64,000 nt of DNA from Pseudoalteromonas xiamenensis. Its GTDB lineage: Bacteria > Pseudomonadota > Gammaproteobacteria > Enterobacterales > Alteromonadaceae. The notes below the pieces were generated by a model. The model was not told the origin of the DNA, did no database searches, and saw only the letters and a program-made list of their open reading frames with translations. The translations under genes were made by a program, and so were the position numbers. The stretch is from positions 372,001 to 436,000 of the forward strand of contig NZ_CP099917.1 in assembly GCF_030994125.1 (NCBI RefSeq), written 5' to 3'. This document shows, in pieces, positions 3,083-51,796 of the stretch. The number at the start of each line of letters is the position of its first letter. Positions within the stretch are counted from its first letter, which is position 1.

Positions 3083-4516
3083 ATGAGCCAAACAGTAGCA
3101 TCACAAACTGAGTACAATTATAAAGTTGTACGCCAATTCGCTATCATGACAGTGATTTGGGGCATCGTTGGCATGGGTGTAGGTGTGTTTATCGCGGCCC
3201 AGCTTGCTTGGCCTTGGTTAAACTTCGACACTCCATGGTTAACTTACTCTAGACTACGTCCGTTACACACGAACGCAGTTATTTTCGCATTTGGTACAAG
3301 TGCACTATTTGCAACGTCTTACTACGTTGTACAGCGTACATGTCAAACGCGTCTTTTCTCAGACAAACTTGCAGCATTCACCTTTTGGGGTTGGCAAGCA
3401 ATTATCGTATCTGCGGCAATTACATTACCTCTTGGTATTACGTCGTCAAAAGAATACGCTGAGCTTGAGTGGCCTATCGACATCGCTATCGCGATTGTTT
3501 GGGTAAGTTATGCAGTGGTGTTCTTCGGTACGCTAATCAAGCGTAAAGTATCGCACATCTATGTTGCTAACTGGTTCTACGCGGGTTTCATCATTACGGT
3601 TGCAATTCTTCATATCGTAAACAGCATGGCAATCCCTGTTTCACTAACTAAATCATACTCAATCTACGCGGGTGCTGTGGATGCGATGGTTCAGTGGTGG
3701 TACGGCCACAACGCGGTAGGTTTCCTACTAACTGCAGGTTTCTTAGGTATGATGTATTACTTTGTACCGAAACAAGCTGGCCGTCCGGTTTATTCTTACC
3801 GTCTATCTGTTGTTCACTTCTGGGCACTTGTTTCTCTATATATCTGGGCAGGTCCTCACCACCTTCACTACACCGCTTTACCTGACTGGACTCAATCACT
3901 CGGTATGGTTATGTCAGTGATCCTATTCGTTCCGTCTTGGGGTGGTATGATCAACGGTATCATGACGCTTTCTGGCGCATGGCACAAACTACGTACTGAC
4001 CCAGTACTACGTTTCCTTGTTGTTTCTCTTTCATTTTACGGTATGTCTACGTTTGAAGGTCCAATGATGGCTATTAAGTCAGTAAATGCGCTTTCTCACT
4101 ACACAGACTGGACTGTTGGTCACGTACACTCAGGTGCGCTAGGTTGGGTTGCTATGATTTCAATCGGTGCTATCTACCACCTAATCCCTGCTCTTTTCGG
4201 TCATTCAGGCATGTACAGCGTGCGTCTTGTTAACACACACTTCTGGTTACACACTGTTGGTGTAGTTCTTTACATCGTTGCAATGTGGATCTCTGGTGTT
4301 ATGCAAGGTCTAATGTGGCGCGCAGTAAACGCTGACGGCACGTTAATGTACAGCTTTGTACAAGCACTTGAAGCATCTAAGCCTTTCTACATCATGCGTT
4401 TCCTTGGTGGTGTGTTCATCGTTACAGGTATGCTTGTAATGGCTTACAACACTTTCCGTACAGTTACAGCAAAAAGCGGCTCACTAGCTGACGACGCTAA
4501 AGCACAATTGGCTTAA
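3083..4516 (+). CDS. ccoN: cbb3-type cytochrome c oxidase subunit I
   Basis: This 477-residue protein is the catalytic subunit of the high-affinity cbb3 oxidase, which reduces oxygen to water at the inner membrane while pumping protons. It has about 12 membrane segments. The metal ligands are visible: His62 in RPLHTNAV (heme b), His209 in WWYGHNAV with Tyr253 in YIWAGPHH (the expected crosslinked His-Tyr pair), His259/His260 (copper B), and His347/His349 in [11 protein letters not shown] (hemes). Length and motifs are normal for CcoN. It heads the ccoNOQP operon, with ccoO 12 bp downstream. The leader holds an Fnr-like box and a 12-bp inverted repeat, consistent with low-oxygen control. Identification is very secure. 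Confidence 0.98.
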
Positions 4517-4528
4517 GAGGTGTAGAAC

Positions 4529-5149
4529 ATGGCAAATAATAACTCAACCAATAAACATGAAATTGTAGAAAAGAACGTTGGCCTGATGGCTATCCTAACG
4601 GTGTTCGCAATCAGTTTCGGTGCATTGGTAGAAATCACACCACTTATGTTCCAAAAAGACACAACTCAACCAGTAGAAGGACTACGTCCGTTAACTGCGC
4701 TTGAGCTTGAAGGTCGAGACATTTTCGTACGTGAAGGCTGTTACGGCTGTCACTCTCAAATGATCCGTCCTTTCCGTGACGAAGTTGAGCGCTACGGCCA
4801 CTACTCTGTTGCGGGCGAATCAGTATGGGATCACCCATTCCAATGGGGTTCAAAACGTACTGGTCCTGATTTGGCACGTGTTGGTCATCGTTATTCAGAC
4901 GATTGGCATTATGCTCACTTAATGGATCCGCGTTCAGTAGTTCCAGAGTCAAACATGCCTGGCTATCCTTGGTTAGACAAAAACGTACTAGACGGCAAGT
5001 TGACCGCCAAGAAAATGGAAGTCTTTAAAGGGTTTGGTGTTCCATACACTGATGAAGACATCAAAGGCGCAGAAGCGGCAGTTAAGGGCAAAACAGAAAT
5101 TCAAGCTCTAATCGCGTATCTGCAACAGCTTGGTACACACTTGAAGTAA
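4529..5149 (+). CDS. ccoO: cbb3-type cytochrome c oxidase subunit II (monoheme cytochrome c)
   Basis: This 206-residue subunit is anchored by one N-terminal membrane helix (about residues 18-36) and exposes a c-type heme domain to the periplasm. The heme-binding motif is CYGCH (Cys71, Cys74, His75), and the likely axial Met143 is in SNMPGYPW. It passes electrons from CcoP toward the CcoN active site. It is preceded by a good ribosome site (AGAGGTG) 12 bp after ccoN and followed by ccoQ 6 bp later, so the four genes form one transcript. Nothing unusual was noted. Confidence 0.98.
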
Positions 5150-5155
5150 TTTATT

Positions 5156-5341
5156 ATGGATTACGGAACATACAGAGGCATTTTAACTCTGGTAATTTTG
5201 GTACTGTTTATCGTTATTGTTGTGTGGGCTTATAGCAAACGCACTAAAAATCGTTTTGATAATGCTGCAAACGCTATATTTGAAGACGAGAAAACGCACA
5301 ATGAAACGATCTCTAAAGAGGAAAAGGAGTCTGAAAAATGA
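5156..5341 (+). CDS. ccoQ: cbb3-type oxidase small subunit CcoQ
   Basis: This 61-residue protein has a single membrane helix at about residues 7-26 followed by a charged cytoplasmic tail rich in Lys and Glu, the usual build of CcoQ/FixQ. In other bacteria this subunit stabilises the assembled oxidase or its association with CcoP. Its last four bases overlap the start of ccoP (ATGA), indicating coupled translation. The position between ccoO and ccoP makes the call certain despite low sequence conservation in this family. Confidence 0.93.
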   Translation: MDYGTYRGILTLVILVLFIVIVVWAYSKRTKNRFDNAANAIFEDEKTHNETISKEEKESEK

Positions 5342-6309
5342 CTAGCTTTTGGAGTATTTGGGTCATCGTATTGACCTTATCGTGTCTTGCTATCATCTTC
5401 GGCTTGCTAATTTGGAACCTGAAGAATTACGCAGGTGTAGAAGAAGGCGCAAGTTGTGGACATGAGTACGATGGTATTGAAGAACTGAACAACCCACTAC
5501 CTAAGTGGTGGACAATCATGTTCTTCGCTACGTTTGTTTGGTCTGTATTCTATCTTGCAGCATACCCGGGCCTAGGTAACTGGGAAGGTCTATTCAAATG
5601 GACAAGCTCAAACCAAGGTATCACATCAATGGCTGAATCTAAGCAAGCGGTGATTGATGCAAAGGCAAACGGTGAACGTGTGCAACTTGACCAAGAAGTT
5701 CGTGCGGCAGAAGAACGTTTCGGCCCAATCTTTAAACAATACGCTGCTCAAGATATTGAAGTATTAGTTAAAGATGAAAAAGCACTCGAAATTGGTCAAC
5801 GCCTGTTCTCACAAAACTGTGCCCAGTGTCACGGCTCTGATGCGCGCGGTGGTGTTGGTTTCCCTAATCTTTCAGATAACGACTGGTTATACGGTGGTAC
5901 ACCTGACAAGATAAAAGAAACTATCCTTCACGGCCGTAAAGCAGCTATGCCAGCTTGGAAAGACGCGTTAGGTGAGCAAGGTGTTAAAGAAGTTACCGCT
6001 TTCGTTCTTAGCCTTTCTGGTCGTAAAGTAAACCAAAAAGACGCTGACGCTGGTCAAGCTCGCTTTGCAATGTGTGCTGCGTGTCACGGTATGGATGGTA
6101 AAGGTTCTGTAGCACATAACCTACCATTTGGCGCACCAAACCTAACAGACAACATTTGGTTATACGGTGGTTCTCAACGTGCAGTTGAAGAAACACTTAA
6201 CCATGGTCGTCAAGGTGTGATGCCAGCATGGAAAGACATTTTAGGTGAAGAAAAAGTTCACCTATTAGCTGCATACGTTTACAGCTTATCGCATAACGAA
6301 AAGCACTAA
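5338..6309 (+). CDS. ccoP: cbb3-type cytochrome c oxidase subunit III (diheme cytochrome c)
   Basis: This 323-residue protein has two membrane helices (about residues 7-27 and 57-77) and two c-type heme domains in the periplasm. The heme sites are CAQCH (Cys161, Cys164, His165) and CAACH (Cys246, Cys249, His250), each followed by a conserved NLSDNDWLYGG or NLTDNIWLYGG stretch and an MPAWKD segment carrying the likely axial Met. It is the electron entry subunit of the oxidase. The two heme domains are clearly internal duplicates. It overlaps ccoQ by four bases and ends just before a strong terminator, so the oxidase operon is ccoNOQP only. Confidence 0.98.
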   Translation: MTSFWSIWVIVLTLSCLAIIFGLLIWNLKNYAGVEEGASCGHEYDGIEELNNPLPKWWTIMFFATFVWSVFYLAAYPGLGNWEGLFKWTSSNQGITSMAESKQAVIDAKANGERVQLDQEVRAAEERFGPIFKQYAAQDIEVLVKDEKALEIGQRLFSQNCAQCHGSDARGGVGFPNLSDNDWLYGGTPDKIKETILHGRKAAMPAWKDALGEQGVKEVTAFVLSLSGRKVNQKDADAGQARFAMCAACHGMDGKGSVAHNLPFGAPNLTDNIWLYGGSQRAVEETLNHGRQGVMPAWKDILGEEKVHLLAAYVYSLSHNEKH

Positions 6310-6330
6310 TAACGTAAGTTATCTAAGATC

Positions 6331-6360
6331 AAAAAAGCCTCCGATTGGAGGCTTTTTTTT
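6331..6360 (+). terminator. Rho-independent terminator after ccoP
   Basis: The hairpin GCCTCC-GATT-GGAGGC (6337-6352) is followed by eight T and preceded by six A. It closes the ccoNOQP operon 21 bp after the ccoP stop and separates it from the fixH-ccoI-ccoS transcript. Confidence 0.93.
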
Positions 6361-6419
6361 GGGTTTTTATAAGGATTTAAGATAGAATGCTTGCACCAAT
6401 TTTTAGTTGTTGAGTCACT

Positions 6420-6911
6420 ATGAACCCTACTCCGTGGTATAAAAATTTCTGGCCTTGGTTTTTAATGTTTTTCCCACTTGTGAGCATCGTCGCATGTGTA
6501 TTGCTTGTGTTTGTTGCCGTTGGAAATGGTCCAGATTTAGTTGTTGATGATTACTATAAAAAAGGTAAAGCGATCAACCTAGAGTTAACTAAGTTCGACA
6601 AAGCTAAAGCGTTATATCTACACGGGGATCTTAACGTTGCTGAACATCGAATTGCGTTCGATTTTACAAAAGGTGATCATAGTCAAGTTACAGCGCTTAA
6701 AGCTTCATTTTATCATCGCACAATTAAGAAACACGACTTCAACGTCACTTTATTGCAAAATGCTGACGGTCATTTCACCGCGACAGTTGAACACTACGAA
6801 CCTGGTGCATATACCATATTCCTTGAACCTATGGATGGCAGCTGGAAGTTAAAAGAAAATCTAGAGTTACCAACGAAACAAACTGTCTCTATCAGCCCTG
6901 ATTATAAATAA
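6420..6911 (+). CDS. FixH family membrane protein
   Basis: This 163-residue protein has one N-terminal membrane helix (about residues 10-33, WFLMFFPLVSIVACVLLVFVAV) and a soluble periplasmic beta-rich domain. The GPDLVVDDYYKKGKAIN segment just after the helix is the hallmark of FixH/CcoH. FixH proteins are needed for assembly and stability of the cbb3 oxidase, possibly by handling CcoN or CcoP intermediates. It lies after the ccoP terminator and 11 bp before the copper ATPase gene, so it opens the maturation operon. The pattern FixH-CcoI-CcoS is standard. Confidence 0.93.
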   Translation: MNPTPWYKNFWPWFLMFFPLVSIVACVLLVFVAVGNGPDLVVDDYYKKGKAINLELTKFDKAKALYLHGDLNVAEHRIAFDFTKGDHSQVTALKASFYHRTIKKHDFNVTLLQNADGHFTATVEHYEPGAYTIFLEPMDGSWKLKENLELPTKQTVSISPDYK

Positions 6912-6922
6912 GTAGGTTAGCC

Positions 6923-9298
6923 ATGTCGCAAAGTTGTTTCCACTGTTTGGAACCCATACCAAGTGGATTTGATGGACAGGTTACCTATGAACACGAACAA
7001 CATCCTGTCTGTTGTATAGGCTGTCAGGCCGTCGCTGAGCATATTATTGCTGAAGGAATGAGCGATTATTATAAGTTTCGAACAGTCAAAGCTGGCAAAG
7101 TCGAAAACTTAGTCCCTGATCAACTTAAAATCATCGAAAGCTATGATAATGATGCTATTCAGGAAGATTTTATTTCGCATCAGGGCAGCCTAAACGAAGT
7201 ATTGTTGAGTGTAGAAGGCATTAGTTGCGCCGCATGTGCATGGCTCATTGAAAAACAACTTTTAGCACTCAACGGCGTTGCGCGAGTGGACGTTAACACA
7301 TCGACCCACCGCGCGATGATCTTATGGGACCCTTCGCTCATCAAACTCAGTGAAATGATAGCGAGTCTACATAATATTGGTTACAAAACCTACCCATTTC
7401 AAGCGGATGAAGAAGCAAGTCAAAAACAAGCGGTAGCGAAAGCATATGTCCGACGACTTGGCGTTGCCGGCATCATGACGATGCAAGTCATGATGTTTGC
7501 CTTTGCCATGTACTTTGGCATGTTCTCTGGTATGGATGAGAACTTCGAAGAATACTTCCGCTGGATTAGCTTTGTCCTTGCAACGCCTGTGATCCTATAT
7601 TCAGCCTTGCCTTTTTTATCTAATGCGATAAAAGGACTCAAAGCCAAACAGCTCAATATGGATTTGCCCGTTTCAATGGCAATTTTCGGTGCATATGTAG
7701 CAAGCAGTTACGCGACAATTATGCATACGGGTGAAGTTTACTTTGAATCTATCTGTATGTTTACCTTCTTATTGTTACTCGGTAAATATCTTGAATTTAG
7801 AGCAAGATTAAAAGCGAGTGAGTTCACAGCCAATTTGCACAAGCTACTCCCCTTGACGGCAAGAAAATTACTCGAGTCAGGCGAAGAGCTGATTATTGCA
7901 GCTAAGCAATTAACACTGGGTGACAAAATCCTTGTTAAAGCAGGTGAAACAATACCAGCTGACGGACTCGTTATCGAAGGCAAAACTTCCGTAGACGAGT
8001 CGATGATGACTGGTGAACACCTCCCCGTTTCTAAAATAGTAGGCAACCAAGTCTTTGCCGGCACAAATAATCATGATGGTGTCATTACCATTGAGATAAA
8101 TCAGCTTGGTCAAAATACTTTAATCAATCAAATCATTCGCTTGCAACATAGTGCCCTGACCAAAAGGCCAAAACTCGTTGAAGTTACTGATAAAGTTGCA
8201 CAGTGGTTTGTTGCCTGTCTGCTACTCTTCGCAACCGCCACAGCGATTGGATGGTACCCTATCTCTCCAGACAAAGCCTTTTGGATAACTATCTCTGTAC
8301 TTGTTGCGACTTGTCCTTGCGCGCTGAGTTTAGCAATTCCCACAGCCTTGACTTGTGCCGTCGCCAATTTGACAAAAAAAGGCATTTTAATAAAAGAAGC
8401 ACATGTGTTAGAAACGCTGCCAAAAGTTACCCGTTTTGCATTTGATAAAACAGGGACTCTTACGGAAGGTCGATTTACAATTACCGACGTTGTGACACTG
8501 AGTGATTCATACGACAAAGAGACTTGCTTAAAGTTTGCAGGGCAATTGGAACATTTTTCTGAGCACCCTATCGCGAAAGCGTTTGAAGACTATTTTCCCA
8601 ACAATCGAGCTTTAGACAACGTCGAAGTTTGCTCAGGTTATGGCATTCAGGGCGTTATTCAAAACCTAAATATCGCCATAGGTAAACCATCTTGGTTTGA
8701 TAATTATGAAAGTGACGCACAAGCCGTTTTATTTATCGACGCTAAGCCAGTCTGTGAATTTAAATTAAGTGACAAAGTTAGAAATAGTGCACGCAACGTC
8801 ATCGCGCAATTAAAGTCACAGGGTGTAACGTCTCACATGCTCACCGGTGACTCATCCAACTCAGGTCGTTTGCTTGCAACGCAACTTAAAATGGATTCAG
8901 TCCAAAGCGCTTGTACGCCTAAAGACAAACAGTCCTATGTAGACGATTGGGCATCCAAAGGCGAAGTCGTTGCAATGGTCGGCGACGGAATCAATGACAG
9001 TCCGGTTTTCAACTCAGCACACTTATCCATAGCAATGGAAACAGGCGCGGATATTTCAAAAAATACGGCCGATGTAGTACTGTTACGGAGTGACTTAGTC
9101 GCGATACCTGCGTTAATAACGGTTGCCAAAAAAACGAAACTAATTGTTCGCCAAAATCTTGCTTTGTCACTGATTTATAATGGCTCCATTCTACCTCTCG
9201 CGGCATTAGGGATGGTTGAACCATGGCAAGCCGTTATCGGTATGTCTGCAAGTTCGATTATCGTTATATGTAACTCTTTAAGGTTACTTAAACTATGA
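6923..9298 (+). CDS. ccoI: Heavy-metal P-type ATPase CcoI/FixI (copper for cbb3 oxidase)
   Basis: This 791-residue P1B-type ATPase exports copper across the inner membrane for insertion into the CcoN active site. It starts with a Cys-rich domain (Cys5, Cys8, Cys30, Cys31, Cys34), as in FixI-type ATPases, then an HMA domain with the metal motif SCAAC (Cys102, Cys105). Later come the membrane CPC motif in ATCPCALSLAIP (about residue 464), the phosphorylation motif DKTGTLTEG (about 507) and GDGINDSP. These mark the slow-turnover CopA2/FixI class. Its stop overlaps the start of ccoS (ATGA). Very secure. Confidence 0.96.
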   Translation: MSQSCFHCLEPIPSGFDGQVTYEHEQHPVCCIGCQAVAEHIIAEGMSDYYKFRTVKAGKVENLVPDQLKIIESYDNDAIQEDFISHQGSLNEVLLSVEGISCAACAWLIEKQLLALNGVARVDVNTSTHRAMILWDPSLIKLSEMIASLHNIGYKTYPFQADEEASQKQAVAKAYVRRLGVAGIMTMQVMMFAFAMYFGMFSGMDENFEEYFRWISFVLATPVILYSALPFLSNAIKGLKAKQLNMDLPVSMAIFGAYVASSYATIMHTGEVYFESICMFTFLLLLGKYLEFRARLKASEFTANLHKLLPLTARKLLESGEELIIAAKQLTLGDKILVKAGETIPADGLVIEGKTSVDESMMTGEHLPVSKIVGNQVFAGTNNHDGVITIEINQLGQNTLINQIIRLQHSALTKRPKLVEVTDKVAQWFVACLLLFATATAIGWYPISPDKAFWITISVLVATCPCALSLAIPTALTCAVANLTKKGILIKEAHVLETLPKVTRFAFDKTGTLTEGRFTITDVVTLSDSYDKETCLKFAGQLEHFSEHPIAKAFEDYFPNNRALDNVEVCSGYGIQGVIQNLNIAIGKPSWFDNYESDAQAVLFIDAKPVCEFKLSDKVRNSARNVIAQLKSQGVTSHMLTGDSSNSGRLLATQLKMDSVQSACTPKDKQSYVDDWASKGEVVAMVGDGINDSPVFNSAHLSIAMETGADISKNTADVVLLRSDLVAIPALITVAKKTKLIVRQNLALSLIYNGSILPLAALGMVEPWQAVIGMSASSIIVICNSLRLLKL

Positions 9299-9468
9299 GC
9301 ATAATTTACGTTTTAATACCAATTGCAATTCTTTTTGTGTTGATTGCCATTGGGATATTCTTTTGGGCTGTTCGTAGCGAGCAGTTTTCCGATTTAGAAA
9401 AACAAGGTCACAGTATCTTGTTTGACGATGACAAAGAGCAGCACAAAAAGGCCAATGAACGAGATTAA
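9295..9468 (+). CDS. ccoS: cbb3-type oxidase assembly protein CcoS
   Basis: This 57-residue protein has one membrane helix near the N-terminus (about residues 4-26, with IYVLIPIAILFVLIAIGIFF), followed by WAVRSEQFSDLEKQGHSILFDDD. The segment W-A-V-x-S-x-Q-F-x-D-L is diagnostic of CcoS/FixS. CcoS is required for cofactor loading of the oxidase together with the CcoI ATPase. The ATG overlaps the ccoI stop by four bases, and the 3' end overlaps the start of the next gene (ATG at 9455) by 14 bases, showing a tightly coupled operon. Confidence 0.93.
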   Translation: MSIIYVLIPIAILFVLIAIGIFFWAVRSEQFSDLEKQGHSILFDDDKEQHKKANERD

Positions 9469-10124
9469 TCTTTTTGCAGCTTTTTTAATGGGGTTGTTTG
9501 GTAGTGGCCATTGTCTTGTTATGTGCGGGGGTGGCGTCGAGCCTACAACTGGCTTCAAAGCACGAAAGCCCGTTTGTCATTGCACTTTGCTATAACATAG
9601 GAAGAATGACCAGTTATGGCGTAGCTGGGCTACTGGTTGCGTCGCTAGGCATTCAATTTGCAAAGCAAAACACCATGTTTGCCCTATCTCTATCAATGGT
9701 CAGCGCATTGTTTATGATACTTCTAGGTCTTTATATAATGCGTATCGCTGCGTCACTACAATGGATAGAAAAGGCAGGTAAAACGGTAATATGGCAACAT
9801 CTTGTCAAAATTAATCGACATCTACTACCAATTGATAGCTACCCAAAGGCGCTTGCCTATGGTGCACTTTGGGGATGGCTACCATGTGGGCTCGTGTATT
9901 CTGCGCTGACTTGGACTCTTTCGGCAGAATCGCCTCTGCAAGGTTTGCTAATAATGTTCGCGTTTGCTTTGGGCACCTTTCCGGCTCTACTTTTGACGAG
10001 CCAAATTTCAACCAAAGTGAGTTCTTTCATTAATCATCAAATTGTGCGTATTTTGCTGGGAAATTTGTTTATTTGGTATGGTATTTATCTACTTATCATT
10101 GCAAGCAATAAGTTAGTACATTAA
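9455..10124 (+). pseudogene. SafE/TauE-family membrane protein after ccoS, frameshifted at a G tract
   Basis: The expected start is the ATG at 9455 (MNEINLFAAFLMGLFGSGHC), overlapping ccoS. That frame holds the family signature GSGHCLVMCGG and then breaks at a run of five G (9527-9531). The rest of the protein, starting VASSLQLASKH, continues in another frame to 10124. Two extra G would restore MCGGVASSL; removing one G would give MCGVASSL. The remainder has about five membrane helices and the WGWLPCGLVYSAL segment typical of the family found after ccoS in many Proteobacteria, where it is thought to take part in copper handling for the oxidase. The gene is otherwise intact, so the break may be a sequence error. 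Confidence 0.82.
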
Positions 10125-10162
10125 TCTAGCAGGTGAAAGGCGTCAGTTTTAATGGAATTATT

Positions 10163-10897
10163 ATGGATTTAAATAACCCCAATCGTGCAAGATCTAACTG
10201 CACCATAAGTTGTAACAACTGCAGTATAAGCCAGCTATGCCTGCCATTTAGTTTAAATGGCCAAGAAATGGATCGCCTAGACGAAATCATTGAGCGAAAG
10301 AAACCTCTTCATAAAGGTGACTTTTTGTTTGAATCAGGTGCCGAACTAAACGCAATTTATGCCGTCCGCTCTGGTAGTTTTAAATCTTTTACCATTTCCG
10401 AACAAGGCGATGAACAAATCACAGGATTTCATTTAGCAGGTGACCTTGTCGGCTTTGACGCAATCAACAAAATGCAGCACCAAAGTTTCGCTCAAGCACT
10501 TGAAACATCTATGGTCTGCGAAATACCGTTCGATACATTAGATGAACTCGCTGGTAAATTACCTAAACTTCGTCAGCAGATCATGCGTTTGATGAGCAGT
10601 GAAATTAATTATGACCAGGAAATGCTGTTACTTCTTAACAAGAAAACAGCAGAGGAAAGACTCGCTACATTCATCTATAACCTTTCAAACCGTTTCGGCG
10701 ACCGCGGCTTCTCACGCAAAGAATTTAGATTTACGATGACTCGTGGTGAAATCGGTAATTATTTAGGCCTGACAGTTGAAACGATCAGTCGACTCTTGAG
10801 CCGTTTTCAAAAAGCAGATCTTATTAAGGTGGAAGGTAAATTCATTACTATCCTTGATATTCCTGAACTTGCAAAAACTGCTGGAATATCAATTTGA
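10163..10897 (+). CDS. fnr: Fnr/EtrA global anaerobic transcription regulator
   Basis: This 244-residue Crp/Fnr-family regulator is closely similar to E. coli Fnr over its whole length. The iron-sulfur ligands are present: N-terminal cysteines at 13, 17, 20 and 26 (the last three match the essential set) and the internal Cys in [11 protein letters not shown] near residue 119. The cAMP-like fold (about 30-150) is followed by a helix-turn-helix with recognition helix [13 protein letters not shown]. The [4Fe-4S] cluster is lost in oxygen, so the protein activates low-oxygen genes such as ccoNOQP. The ATG at 10163 is preferred over an upstream GTG at 10133, because family members begin shortly before the Cys cluster. 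It follows the oxidase maturation genes and ends at a terminator. Confidence 0.95.
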
Positions 10898-48514: not shown

Positions 48515-48560
48515 GGAGTAAAGCAACAGGCTTTCGCAAGTCACTTTACTCCTCTTTTCT
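48515..48560 (+). terminator. Terminator-like hairpin after the solute-binding-protein gene
   Basis: GGAGTAAAG (48515-48523) pairs perfectly with CTTTACTCC (48544-48552) across a 20-base loop containing an AGGCTTTCGCAAG mini-stem, followed by TCTTTTCT. The tail lies just outside the ccoG stop on the opposite strand. The T-rich side supports the plus direction. Confidence 0.5.
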
Positions 48561-49941
48561 ATTTTGAATAGAAATAGCTTTTTTTAACCATCTGTATTTC
48601 AGCATTTTGCTGAGATTCAACGATAAATTCGATTGGGTGCGCTTTACTCTTTAGGAAACTCGCATCTGCTTTTAACGTTACAGGTACTAGCATCATAGCG
48701 CCTGCATCTATATTAATCTGCTTTGGCGCGCTTACCTCAACGTCTACCAACCCTCGTACAGAAACCGTGTAGGACATCGGTTGTTGTGTCTTATTCACGA
48801 TGCTAAGTGTGTAAGGATTTTCCGCATACCCCATATAATCCATTCGATAAAGTGCGTTTCTATCTCGGATCACGGAAACTTCAATTGGCGTACGTAAACT
48901 CAACCATAAGAACATGACAACCAAAGTCAGCACCGTCAGACTGGCATAGCCGATACGTTTTAAGTTACCACTGCGACTCTTGATACCTAATGCACTGTTT
49001 TCACTTGAGTAAGCAATTAGATTTCGCGCGTAGCCAAATTTATCCATCGTGTCGTTACACGCATCAATACATAAGCCACAGTTAATGCACTCATATTGCA
49101 ATCCATTTCGAATGTCTATTCCCGCAGGACAAACCTCCACACATAAATTACAATCGACACAATCACCCAAACCCTGAGATTTATGATCTGCTTTTCTTTT
49201 ACGCGGGCCACGATGTTCACCTCGCGTTACGTCATAAGTCACAAGCTTCGTGTCTTTATCAAACATAACTGACTGAAATCGTGCGTATGGACATGCCACA
49301 GTGCACATTTTTTCGCGTAAAAATCCGGCATTTCCATAAGTGCAAAACATGAATAGCCCCACCCAAAAAGTGACAATACCTGACCATTCAAAATGGAACA
49401 ATTCGCTATACAAAGTTCGCACCGGTATGAAATAGGACATGAAGGTGGTTGCTGTTAAAAACGATATTAACAACCAGGCGACGTGTTTTATGGTTTTTCT
49501 AGTTACTTTCTTTCTATCCCAACCCGCTTTATCGAGTTTAATACGTTGATTTCGATTCCCTTCAACTCGGTGCTCGACCCAAGTAAAAAGTAACATCCAC
49601 ACAGTTTGAGGGCATACATAGCCACACCAAACTCGACCCAACCAGTTTGTAATAAAAAACAAACCAAATGCCGACGCCATAAACACCCAAGCGAGTATCA
49701 TCAGATCTTGTGGTAAAAACGTTGCGCCAAACACACGGAAATGTTGTGAACTCACATCGAGTAAGAATGCTTGACTACCATTGTAGTTTATCCAAGGGAT
49801 TAAAATAAAACTTGCCATAAGTATCCAACTTAAATAACGACGTATTCTTTGGAACTTACCCTTTTGCTCACGTACATAAATTGCCGAATCTTGCTTGTAG
49901 GGCTTTATGATTAGGTTTTCTTCTTTAATATCAAATTTCAT
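48559..49941 (-). CDS. ccoG: cbb3 oxidase accessory protein CcoG (FixG/RdxA)
   Basis: This 460-residue membrane protein is needed for copper handling and assembly of cbb3 oxidase. It has about five membrane helices, WCGYVCPQTVWMLLFTW (about residues 110-126) and a cytoplasmic ferredoxin domain with two [4Fe-4S] motifs: CVDCNLCVEVCPAG and CINCGLCIDACNDT (about 260-300). The C-terminal part is a periplasmic beta domain. It is not with the other assembly genes (6420-10124) but 40 kb away, next to a sigma-54 activator, and has a near-consensus sigma-54 promoter upstream. The start is preceded by a weak ribosome site. Identification is certain. Confidence 0.95.
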   Translation of the reverse strand: MKFDIKEENLIIKPYKQDSAIYVREQKGKFQRIRRYLSWILMASFILIPWINYNGSQAFLLDVSSQHFRVFGATFLPQDLMILAWVFMASAFGLFFITNWLGRVWCGYVCPQTVWMLLFTWVEHRVEGNRNQRIKLDKAGWDRKKVTRKTIKHVAWLLISFLTATTFMSYFIPVRTLYSELFHFEWSGIVTFWVGLFMFCTYGNAGFLREKMCTVACPYARFQSVMFDKDTKLVTYDVTRGEHRGPRKRKADHKSQGLGDCVDCNLCVEVCPAGIDIRNGLQYECINCGLCIDACNDTMDKFGYARNLIAYSSENSALGIKSRSGNLKRIGYASLTVLTLVVMFLWLSLRTPIEVSVIRDRNALYRMDYMGYAENPYTLSIVNKTQQPMSYTVSVRGLVDVEVSAPKQINIDAGAMMLVPVTLKADASFLKSKAHPIEFIVESQQNAEIQMVKKSYFYSK

Positions 49942-49978
49942 TGGCTTTACTTTTTCTACAAAGACTTACCTTCTAATG

Positions 49979-49993
49979 GCAAGTTTTAAGCCA
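49979..49993 (-). promoter_or_regulatory. Sigma-54 promoter of ccoG
   Basis: On the minus strand, TGGCTTAAAACTTGC matches the sigma-54 core TGGC-N7-TTGC, with GG and GC exactly 10 bases apart. The transcription start would fall about 27 bases ahead of the ccoG ATG at 49941. An AT-rich stretch and a palindromic candidate activator site follow upstream. Confidence 0.72.
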
Positions 49994-50057
49994 AATCTAA
50001 AAGTTATTTATATTGTTATATTTCAACAGGTTAAAACTTGTAAAGCGAATTCAATAT

Positions 50058-50071
50058 CGCGAAATATCACG
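50058..50071. promoter_or_regulatory. Candidate activator site upstream of ccoG (overlaps the regulator stop)
   Basis: CGCGAAATATCACG is one mismatch from a perfect palindrome and differs at one position from the 14-base core of the dyad in the activator's own promoter (51524-51537). It sits about 95 bp upstream of the predicted ccoG start site, a normal distance for a sigma-54 enhancer, and overlaps the activator stop codon. Confidence 0.55.
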
Positions 50072-51506
50072 TTTTCGCTAAATTTCGCGAATTAACACCT
50101 AGTTTCTTCATTTTTGAACGTAGTGTGCTTTCTGGCACGTCTAAAATTGTCGCGGCCCCCTTCGGACCAGAGATTCTGCCATCACAATAGTTAAGAACAT
50201 TCACAATATGTTGTGCAATCGCTTCGTCTAGCGTTTGATTGGTTACAACATGCTGAGAAAACTCCTCAAGCAAAGGTGTTGAAAGTTTTAAAATGCCGCC
50301 ATGATTTAAAATGGCTTCACGCTCAATAACATTCTGCAATTCCCGAATGTTTCCTGGCCAACTGTATTGCATGAATTTCTTCAATGCAGACTTTGAAATC
50401 CCGCGAAGTTTAGTACCAAGCTTATGATTAGTGAGCGCTAAAATTTCAGTTGCAAGTAAAGGGATGTCCTCAATTCTTTCTCGTAGTGGCGGTAACATTA
50501 TTGGAAACACGTTAAGCCGATAGAACAAATCCATCCGAAACGTTCCTGAACCGACCATATCCAGTAAATCCCGGTTTGTTGCAGCAATTAGGCGTATATC
50601 TACTTTAATTGTCTGTTGCCCACCAACTCGTTCGAATTCACTTTCTTGAAGGACGCGAAGAAGTTTGCTTTGAGCTGCAAGAGAAAGTTCGCCAATTTCA
50701 TCAAGAAATAAAGTGCCGCCGTGGGCAAGCTCAAAGCGCCCTTTCCGTCGTTCCACGGCCCCCGTAAAAGCCCCTTTCTCATGGCCAAACAATTCCGATT
50801 CCAGTAAGGACTCCGAAAAAGCTGCACAATTCACCTTTATGAAAGATTGGTTTTTTCTATTCCCTAAACGATGTAAACTTCTAGCAATCAGTTCCTTTCC
50901 TGTGCCATTTTCGCCTTGAATCAGCACCGTGCTTTCCGTTTTACTCACGAGTTCTACCTGTTGTAACACGTTTAAGAACCGCTCACTTTGTCCAACCATA
51001 CCGGAACTACGCCAGTCTGCATTTAATTCGTTAGTCAGATACTCGTTTTCTTCTTGGAGTTGCTCGGATAACTGCTGAACTTTTGTTAAGGCATCACGTA
51101 ACGCGTGTTCGGTTTGTGTTTGAATTGAAATATCGCGAAATATCGCGACAGCTCCGATAAGCGTATTGTCCTTCATGATGGGGGTCGTTGTATATTCCAC
51201 GGGGAAGCGAGAGCCATCTTTACGCCAAAATACTTCGTTTTTAACGTTTCGGACGTTTCCATCTTTAAGTGTTTGATATATTTTGCAATGTTCTGCCGGA
51301 TATACCGAACCGTCGGCATGACTGTGGTGATGATATTCGTGTATTCGCTTACCTATCAACTCAGATGCCATCCAACCTGTCATTTTCTCCGCCGCAGGAT
51401 TAACAAATACGGCATTGCCCTCTAAATCAAAGCCGTATATGCCTTCTCCGACAGAATTTAATAAAATTTCGGGGTCGGATAAAAATTGTTTTAATGGTGA
51501 GTTCAT
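50067..51506 (-). CDS. PAS-domain sigma-54-dependent transcriptional activator
   Basis: This 479-residue enhancer-binding protein has an N-terminal PAS domain (about 10-125, with GIYGFDLEGNAVFVN and IFRDIS), a coiled coil, an AAA+ domain with Walker A GENGTGKELIA (about 192), the sigma-54 contact motif GAFTGA (about 244), and Walker B LFLDEIGEL. It ends in a Fis-type HTH (GPKGAATILDVPESTLRSKMKK). The ATG at 51506 is chosen because a longer start would run through the operator. The PAS domain may sense redox state or a ligand. It lies upstream of ccoG on the same strand. Confidence 0.92.
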   Translation of the reverse strand: MNSPLKQFLSDPEILLNSVGEGIYGFDLEGNAVFVNPAAEKMTGWMASELIGKRIHEYHHHSHADGSVYPAEHCKIYQTLKDGNVRNVKNEVFWRKDGSRFPVEYTTTPIMKDNTLIGAVAIFRDISIQTQTEHALRDALTKVQQLSEQLQEENEYLTNELNADWRSSGMVGQSERFLNVLQQVELVSKTESTVLIQGENGTGKELIARSLHRLGNRKNQSFIKVNCAAFSESLLESELFGHEKGAFTGAVERRKGRFELAHGGTLFLDEIGELSLAAQSKLLRVLQESEFERVGGQQTIKVDIRLIAATNRDLLDMVGSGTFRMDLFYRLNVFPIMLPPLRERIEDIPLLATEILALTNHKLGTKLRGISKSALKKFMQYSWPGNIRELQNVIEREAILNHGGILKLSTPLLEEFSQHVVTNQTLDEAIAQHIVNVLNYCDGRISGPKGAATILDVPESTLRSKMKKLGVNSRNLAKT

Positions 51507-51521
51507 AGCGCCGAAGTAATG

Positions 51522-51548
51522 TTCGTGAAATATCACGAAAATATAGCA
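51522..51548 (-). promoter_or_regulatory. Extended -10 promoter and operator dyad of the activator gene
   Basis: The perfect dyad TTCGTGA-AATA-TCACGAA (51522-51539) lies directly downstream of the extended -10 element TGCTATATT (51540-51548, minus strand), so it covers the transcription start. This position fits autorepression by the encoded activator. Its core is shared with the site upstream of ccoG. Confidence 0.6.
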
Positions 51549-51604
51549 CAGCTGATGTTCTAAAGACTATGTTGTGATGCTAGGTATGCGAGTTGACCCA
51601 CCCA

Positions 51605-51796
51605 TTATTGTTGTCGAATCCAAATTTGCGTTTGTTCATTGCCCACTTGCTGTATCAATGTCATTTCACCGAGCACGCTTGAACTTGCCCCACCGACATC
51701 GTCATCTTCTGGTGGTTTTGGTTGACCTTTTCCTTTACCACAGGCAGTTATAAATACGAGTAGCGTTCCTAAAATAACGAGTTTTAGCTTAATCAT
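51605..51796 (-). CDS. Small lipoprotein
   Basis: This 63-residue protein starts MIKLKLVILGTLLVFITAC, a lipoprotein signal with Cys19 at the lipobox. The mature part is GKGKGQPKPPEDDD followed by GEMTLIQQVGNEQTQIWIRQQ. The ATG at 51796 with a GGGAG site is preferred over the longer start at 51847. Short lipoproteins of this build (basic, then Pro/Asp-rich) occur in many Alteromonadales; the function is unknown. It lies upstream of the activator gene on the same strand. Confidence 0.6.
   Translation of the reverse strand: MIKLKLVILGTLLVFITACGKGKGQPKPPEDDDVGGASSSVLGEMTLIQQVGNEQTQIWIRQQ

Follow-up and report, generated by a model that had tools for sequence, protein, structure and literature searches.

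A predicted enhancer-binding-protein/sigma-54 circuit at a second ccoG gene of Pseudoalteromonas xiamenensis

Results

The window analyzed was a 64-kb stretch of the Pseudoalteromonas xiamenensis genome (NCBI RefSeq assembly GCF_030994125.1, contig NZ_CP099917.1, positions 372,001 to 436,000), in which a regulator gene, hereafter the activator gene, was followed by a ccoG gene in the same direction on the minus strand. Promoter-like elements and dyads were located around both genes (Table 1), and their arrangement pointed to a dedicated circuit in which the activator would switch on ccoG from a sigma-54 promoter and limit its own synthesis. An earlier note on this stretch, made from the sequence alone, had already suggested such control and described a stand-alone ccoG. 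The gene was present and passed the CcoG model TIGR02745 (524.7 bits, cut-off 316.7), but a second ccoG in the same genome (4.6 Mb on two contigs, 3.68 and 0.92 Mb long) had been missed: the canonical copy at C1:2380619-2381950 (genome G000) scored 555.2 bits on TIGR02745 and was 48% identical, and the cysteine motifs of the two proteins aligned. The ccoG beside the activator is the second of two paralogues and was named ccoG2.

Table 1. Positions of the genes and predicted control elements in the 64-kb window
Feature	Position	Strand	Remarks
ccoG2 (second CcoG paralogue, proposed target)	48559..49941	-	460 aa; TIGR02745 match, FixG_C and Fer4 domains
Sigma-54 -24/-12 element TGGCTTAAAACTTGC	49979..49993	-	Inferred transcription start near 49967; equivalent element in 94/94 genus loci whose stretch includes ccoG
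Proximal dyad	50056..50073	-	18.4 bits by weight matrix; centre ~97 bp before inferred start; overlaps activator stop codon
Distal tandem dyad	50074..50091	-	18.1 bits; 9/10 positions; 18 bp from proximal dyad; centre ~115 bp before inferred start; within 3' end of activator gene
Activator gene (PAS, AAA+ sigma-54 interaction domain, putative C-terminal helix-turn-helix)	50067..51506	-	479 aa
Exact dyad within PAS coding region	51134..51147		Not in the earlier note; recurs as an exact dyad at these codons in 37/95 genus genes
Perfect dyad TTCGTGAAATATCACGAA, 18 bases	51522..51539		Over inferred start of activator gene; proposed self-limiting operator
-10-like box TATATT of activator gene	51540..51545	-	Read by eye; absent from sigma-70 scan list

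The earlier note had proposed a search of related genomes for ccoG next to this activator, and the pairing was borne out. The activator was detected (E up to 1e-80) in 95 of 99 genomes of the genus, its own included, and some ccoG in all 99. In 90 of the 95 genus loci ccoG2 began within 300 bp after the activator gene, head to tail with a gap of about 130-280 bp; in four it lay 1.2-2.7 kb after the activator gene and in one (L213, genome G068) beyond the stretch. Activator and ccoG2 were absent together from 4 of the 99 genomes (G026, G030, G082 and G085), each of which held one ccoG that grouped with the canonical copy in the tree. Among 394 genomes of the order, 49 gave an activator match with an E-value of 1e-125 or below, and 35 of them scored at least 590 bits, which was taken as the cut for orthologues (next score, 515.3). 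Two ccoG matches were counted by hand in 33 of these 35 genomes, and the single match in G263 and in G209 (80% and 88% complete) was the copy beside the activator. Two ccoG were also carried by 23 of 199 other ccoG-bearing genomes of the order that had no activator orthologue, for example in genus g42 of family f25, so possession of a second ccoG does not always go with the activator. In a ccoG tree of 52 chosen rows (50 different), the 33 activator-adjacent rows fell together on the same side of a branch that had support of 83/68 and was recovered in 84% of 200 bootstrap trees, which suggested with moderate support that these copies form one lineage.

The activator-ccoG2 pair was found in Shewanellaceae as well. 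A search of genome contigs returned at least 80 loci, from which the Shewanella orthologue L016 was used; L017 was compared and kept outside the counts, and L018-L095 lay outside the comparison. Because L016 adjoined L284 of family f6 in the tree, f6 was identified as Shewanellaceae. Second-tier activators, 45-50% identical, had no ccoG within 3 kb at 14 of 15 loci (L287-L301). At L287 / L336 (G121) the activator was 50% identical, a distant CcoG-like gene (37%) stood about 0.7 kb downstream, and no dyad could be seen within 130 bp before the L287 activator. The ccoG2 gene was broken in two genomes of the genus, by an in-frame TAG in L127 (G060) and into two overlapping matched pieces in L215 (G038), and the upstream elements were retained at both interrupted copies.

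The activator contained an AAA+ sigma-54 interaction domain (PF00158, 242.7 bits, cut-off 20.2) and a PAS domain (PF00989, 53 bits). Its sigma-54 contact loop at residue 245 was GAFTGA, as in 120 of the 129 orthologues compared, with GSFTGA in 8 and GAYTGA in 1. A C-terminal STLRS helix was conserved in the alignment, and rpoN was present in the genome (TIGR02395, 515.6 bits, cut-off 277.35). Among the 25 best NCBIfam models shown, no equivalog scored above its own cut-off. In the PAS domain, five residues between activator positions 56 and 74 (window 51285-51338), namely H56, H59, H60, H61 and C74, were invariant in all 129 orthologues; across 24 PAS sequences, comprising that of the window and 23 of 120 listed relatives, H56, H61 and C74 were invariant. 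The group to which this PAS domain belongs is large (5,226 proteins with E-values of 1e-10 or lower). This invariant His/Cys set is a possible metal or redox site.

The TGGC-N7-TTGC element claimed upstream of ccoG was found in place as TGGCTTAAAACTTGC. For the genus, the promoter profile was anchored on TGG[ACT]-N7-TTG[ACT] within 80 bp of the ccoG start; the anchor succeeded at 94 of 95 loci, the exception being L213, whose stretch does not include ccoG. The best conserved columns of this profile were TGG and TTG, 49-67 bp before the ccoG2 start. The element together with a core dyad 60-110 bp upstream was also sought by strict criteria at 129 loci, 95 from the genus and 34 from outside it (127 with ccoG in the stretch). 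Both were found at 113, and the weight matrix described below recovered most of the others. At these 113 loci the -24 variants were TGGT (65), TGGC (46) and CGGC (2), and the -12 variants TTGC (104), TTGT (5) and TTGA (4). By eye, TTGT or TTGA stood in place of TTGC at -12 in L191, L204, L209-L211, L216-L218 and L332.

Upstream of this promoter, the near-palindrome in the earlier note was found as CGCGAAATATCACG at 50058-50071. The site itself stood, but its description as a single dyad did not, as a second dyad in tandem (the distal dyad in Table 1) had been overlooked. A weight matrix made from the activator-promoter dyads of the genus was run on 127 ccoG2 upstream regions, that is, the 129 loci minus L213 and L227, which have no ccoG in the stretch. 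A dyad of at least 4 bits was recorded at 126 of the 127 copies and a dyad pair at 113, with a spacing of 18-20 bp in 112 and of 30 bp in one. In the background, 10 of 352,570 flank positions were hit, and mononucleotide shuffles (20 per upstream region, 2,540 in total) gave 59 single dyads and 1 double. Upstream of canonical ccoG genes, used as the control, the dyad was found in 0 of 18 and TGGY-N7-TTGC in 1 of 18 (the distant CcoG of L287 not included). In the promoter-anchored profile the dyads were blurred, since their spacing from the promoter differs by a few bases among loci. The conservation of promoter and dyads, which the earlier note had put forward as a check, held in related marine bacteria, throughout the genus as well as in further families, Shewanellaceae among them.

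In principle, the intergenic dyads could terminate transcription or form a hairpin in the activator mRNA, with ccoG2 co-transcribed or served by an ordinary promoter, and the head-to-tail order with a short gap in 90 of 95 genus loci would suit such an arrangement. However, a scan of 49800-51700 listed no terminator at 50056-50091, and the sigma-70 scan listed no promoter upstream of ccoG2. At loci with 1-7 kb between the two genes, the -24/-12 element was kept at ccoG2 in 8 of 8 (L184, L200, L212, L216 and L221-L224), with a dyad of at least 4 bits in seven, and also in G068, where about 7 kb intervenes and TGGC-N7-TTGA and two tandem dyads were recognized by eye at ccoG2. The promoter stays with ccoG2 when the genes separate, which argues against a terminator as well as against read-through. 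The terminator reading, extremely improbable in our view, was rejected on the terminator scan and the separated loci.

At the activator gene, the perfect dyad of the earlier note was confirmed as TTCGTGAAATATCACGAA. At 122 of 129 loci, a YGAN4TCR dyad that was palindromic in at least 6 of 9 positions was located no more than 140 bp before the activator gene. The profile of the 95 genus loci showed a weakly conserved ataat box, followed directly by the dyad and then by gg; because gg comes right after the dyad, the dyad may also overlap the ribosome-binding site. At the codons of the inner PAS dyad, an exact dyad was present in 37 of 95 genus genes, placed 378-390 bp downstream of the one at the start site. 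The rest of those genes contained 4 exact dyads, and 94 ccoG2 genes contained none; beyond the genus, a looser pattern picked up the inner dyad at 4 of 34 loci. Codon bias at the inner-dyad codons was raised, not extreme (ranks 13, 14 and 41 of 259 conserved columns), and the inner dyad may be an extra operator or codon inertia. Its recurrent distance would fit a circuit that is as proposed at ccoG2, with the activator activating its own gene or controlling it through a loop that joins the start-site and inner dyads. Against this, the start-site dyad follows the -10-like box immediately, which is the position of a repressor, 58 of the 95 genes had no exact inner dyad, and inherited codon choice may explain the inner dyad where it occurs. 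Activation or looping was considered unlikely, and direct self-limitation at the start-site dyad was preferred.

The exact pattern CGYGAN4TCRCG occurred three times in the window, every time in this locus, and eight times with at most one mismatch (4.13 expected). An AATA/TATT spacer was present in just 4 of the 15 exact dyads of the genome, and three of those four were at this locus. The fourth dyad with this spacer (L001 1501-1514; G000:C1:60194) lies between -35- and -10-like sequences, and the gene after it is one that we take to be zapC. In 12 chosen genomes of the genus, exact CGYGAWATWTCRCG was found 27 times, 26 of them at this locus; the one off-locus site, like the dyad before the presumed zapC, would be a candidate further target. 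In 15 genomes without the activator (4-5 Mb), it was found 5 times, compared with 14 for the backwards control. At exact-match stringency the circuit would appear close to single-target, and weaker sites are possible.

The recognition helix read PESTLRSK or NESTLRSK in 90 of the 127 loci with an activator dyad, and the outer bases were mostly CG. Four loci with an APSTLRS helix had GA or AA as the outer bases of the activator dyad and, at ccoG, outer bases that were mostly AA or AT. Within genomes, the agreement between the dyads of both promoters was 2.269; over 2,000 permutations its mean was 1.903 and its highest value 2.087 (n = 60 of 129, the loci where the finder obtained both ccoG dyads). 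This comparison ignores relatedness and is supportive only. The GTGA half-site of the dyad resembles sites of the CRP/FNR type, and 5 exact dyads persisted in the 15 genomes without the activator; both points would suit dyads that belong to another DNA-binding protein, for example of that type, with the activator acting elsewhere or via other sites. In opposition, nearly all exact dyads in the 12 activator-bearing genomes were at this locus, the number in activator-less genomes was below the backwards control, the dyads of both promoters covaried with each other and, in the four APSTLRS genomes, with the recognition helix of the activator, and TTGAN6TCAA was found upstream of neither ccoG2 nor the activator gene. 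Ownership of the dyads by another protein was judged very unlikely, and the activator was kept as their probable ligand.

Discussion

The elements, their spacing and conservation, the co-inheritance of the two genes and the concentration of exact dyads at this locus were read directly from the genomes. Repeated upstream sites together with a -24/-12 promoter at the target are expected for a bacterial enhancer-binding protein, and both were present. These results suggested, with a probability of about 85%, a dedicated and nearly single-target enhancer-binding-protein/sigma-54 circuit with negative autoregulation at ccoG2. In the circuit proposed, the activator would bind both tandem dyads of ccoG2, whose centres lie about 97 and 115 bp before its inferred transcription start. 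With its PAS domain in the active state, it would open RpoN polymerase at TGGC-N7-TTGC, and the second CcoG would be made. The same activator would bind the dyad over its own start site and limit its own synthesis.

Several points weigh against this circuit. The -24/-12 element was matched twice in the window against 2.63 expected, which is chance level; the match was rejected as evidence by itself. The other match, at 4995-5009, lies within the ccoO frame, in a region (3083-10897) that holds ccoN, ccoO, ccoP, a heavy-metal (copper-type) P-ATPase gene and fnr. The earlier note placed the distant cbb3 genes behind Fnr-type control; what the window shows is an fnr gene close to them, so such control is putative. 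The exact dyad pattern was found at 15 places in the genome compared with 30 for the backwards control, and in the 12 genus genomes the backwards control gave 21 against the 27 exact dyads, so that the numbers were not striking, only the placement. Genome-wide counting of dyads, not above the backwards control, was rejected as evidence. The case is carried by conservation in relatives. There, 9 of the 113 -12 elements were not TTGC, 7 of the 129 loci failed the activator-promoter dyad criterion, and the eight separated loci had a dyad of at least 4 bits in just seven (not L221) and the pair in just two (L216 and L222). The Pfam Fis-type helix-turn-helix model was absent from the matches of the activator at E 1e-3, and the disregard of relatedness in the permutation counts here as well. 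Binding, RpoN dependence, activation and self-limitation are all predictions from DNA and protein sequence.

Control by Fnr or FixK is usual for cbb3 assembly. The circuit would depart from this usual logic by giving one CcoG lineage a sigma-54 activator of its own. It would be compact, with named (predicted) binding sites, and is directly testable; its single clear output would give a handle on what PAS domains of this large group sense. A redox, oxygen or copper cue, read via the invariant His/Cys motif, is our guess. Copper(II) reduction and a part in cbb3 assembly are what a CcoG would be expected to perform, and for CcoG2 both are putative. It is a tentative and rather doubtful idea that CcoG2 is the output of a self-contained redox/copper response and no spare part for cbb3; in such a response the PAS domain would bind a metal or redox cofactor and activate a single membrane iron-sulfur reductase, separately from the cbb3 genes and the neighbouring fnr.

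NorR-norVW is the type of circuit in which an enhancer-binding protein lies beside its own sigma-54 target. The proposed circuit resembles it in the combination of a sensor domain, an AAA+ sigma-54 domain and a putative helix-turn-helix, in the repeated upstream sites and in the target gene next door. It differs in that the activator scored 348.2 bits on the NorR model NF003451, below the cut-off of 476, and in that the sensor is a PAS domain, the genes are on the same strand and not divergent, and the target is ccoG2.

NifA and FhlA were the best-scoring NCBIfam models (390.9 and 380.9 bits), a likeness of the AAA+ region; both scores were below the cut-offs (528.85 for NifA, TIGR01817, and 830 for FhlA), and NifA and FhlA have other sensors and targets. 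According to the accessible part of a study of Bradyrhizobium (PMC6515984), which has two CcoG, one is listed as a target of FixK2, and the NifA+RpoN regulon includes neither. No report of sigma-54 control of ccoG was found in the literature searched (including PMC6515984, PMC12316311, PMC6446978 and PMC3377617), part of it accessible only in part and with subscription papers mostly outside its scope. On the side of the target, ccoG2 is like CcoG/RdxA/FixG of cbb3 oxidase assembly in passing TIGR02745 and in its aligned cysteine motifs, and unlike them in belonging to a separate lineage with a promoter of its own.

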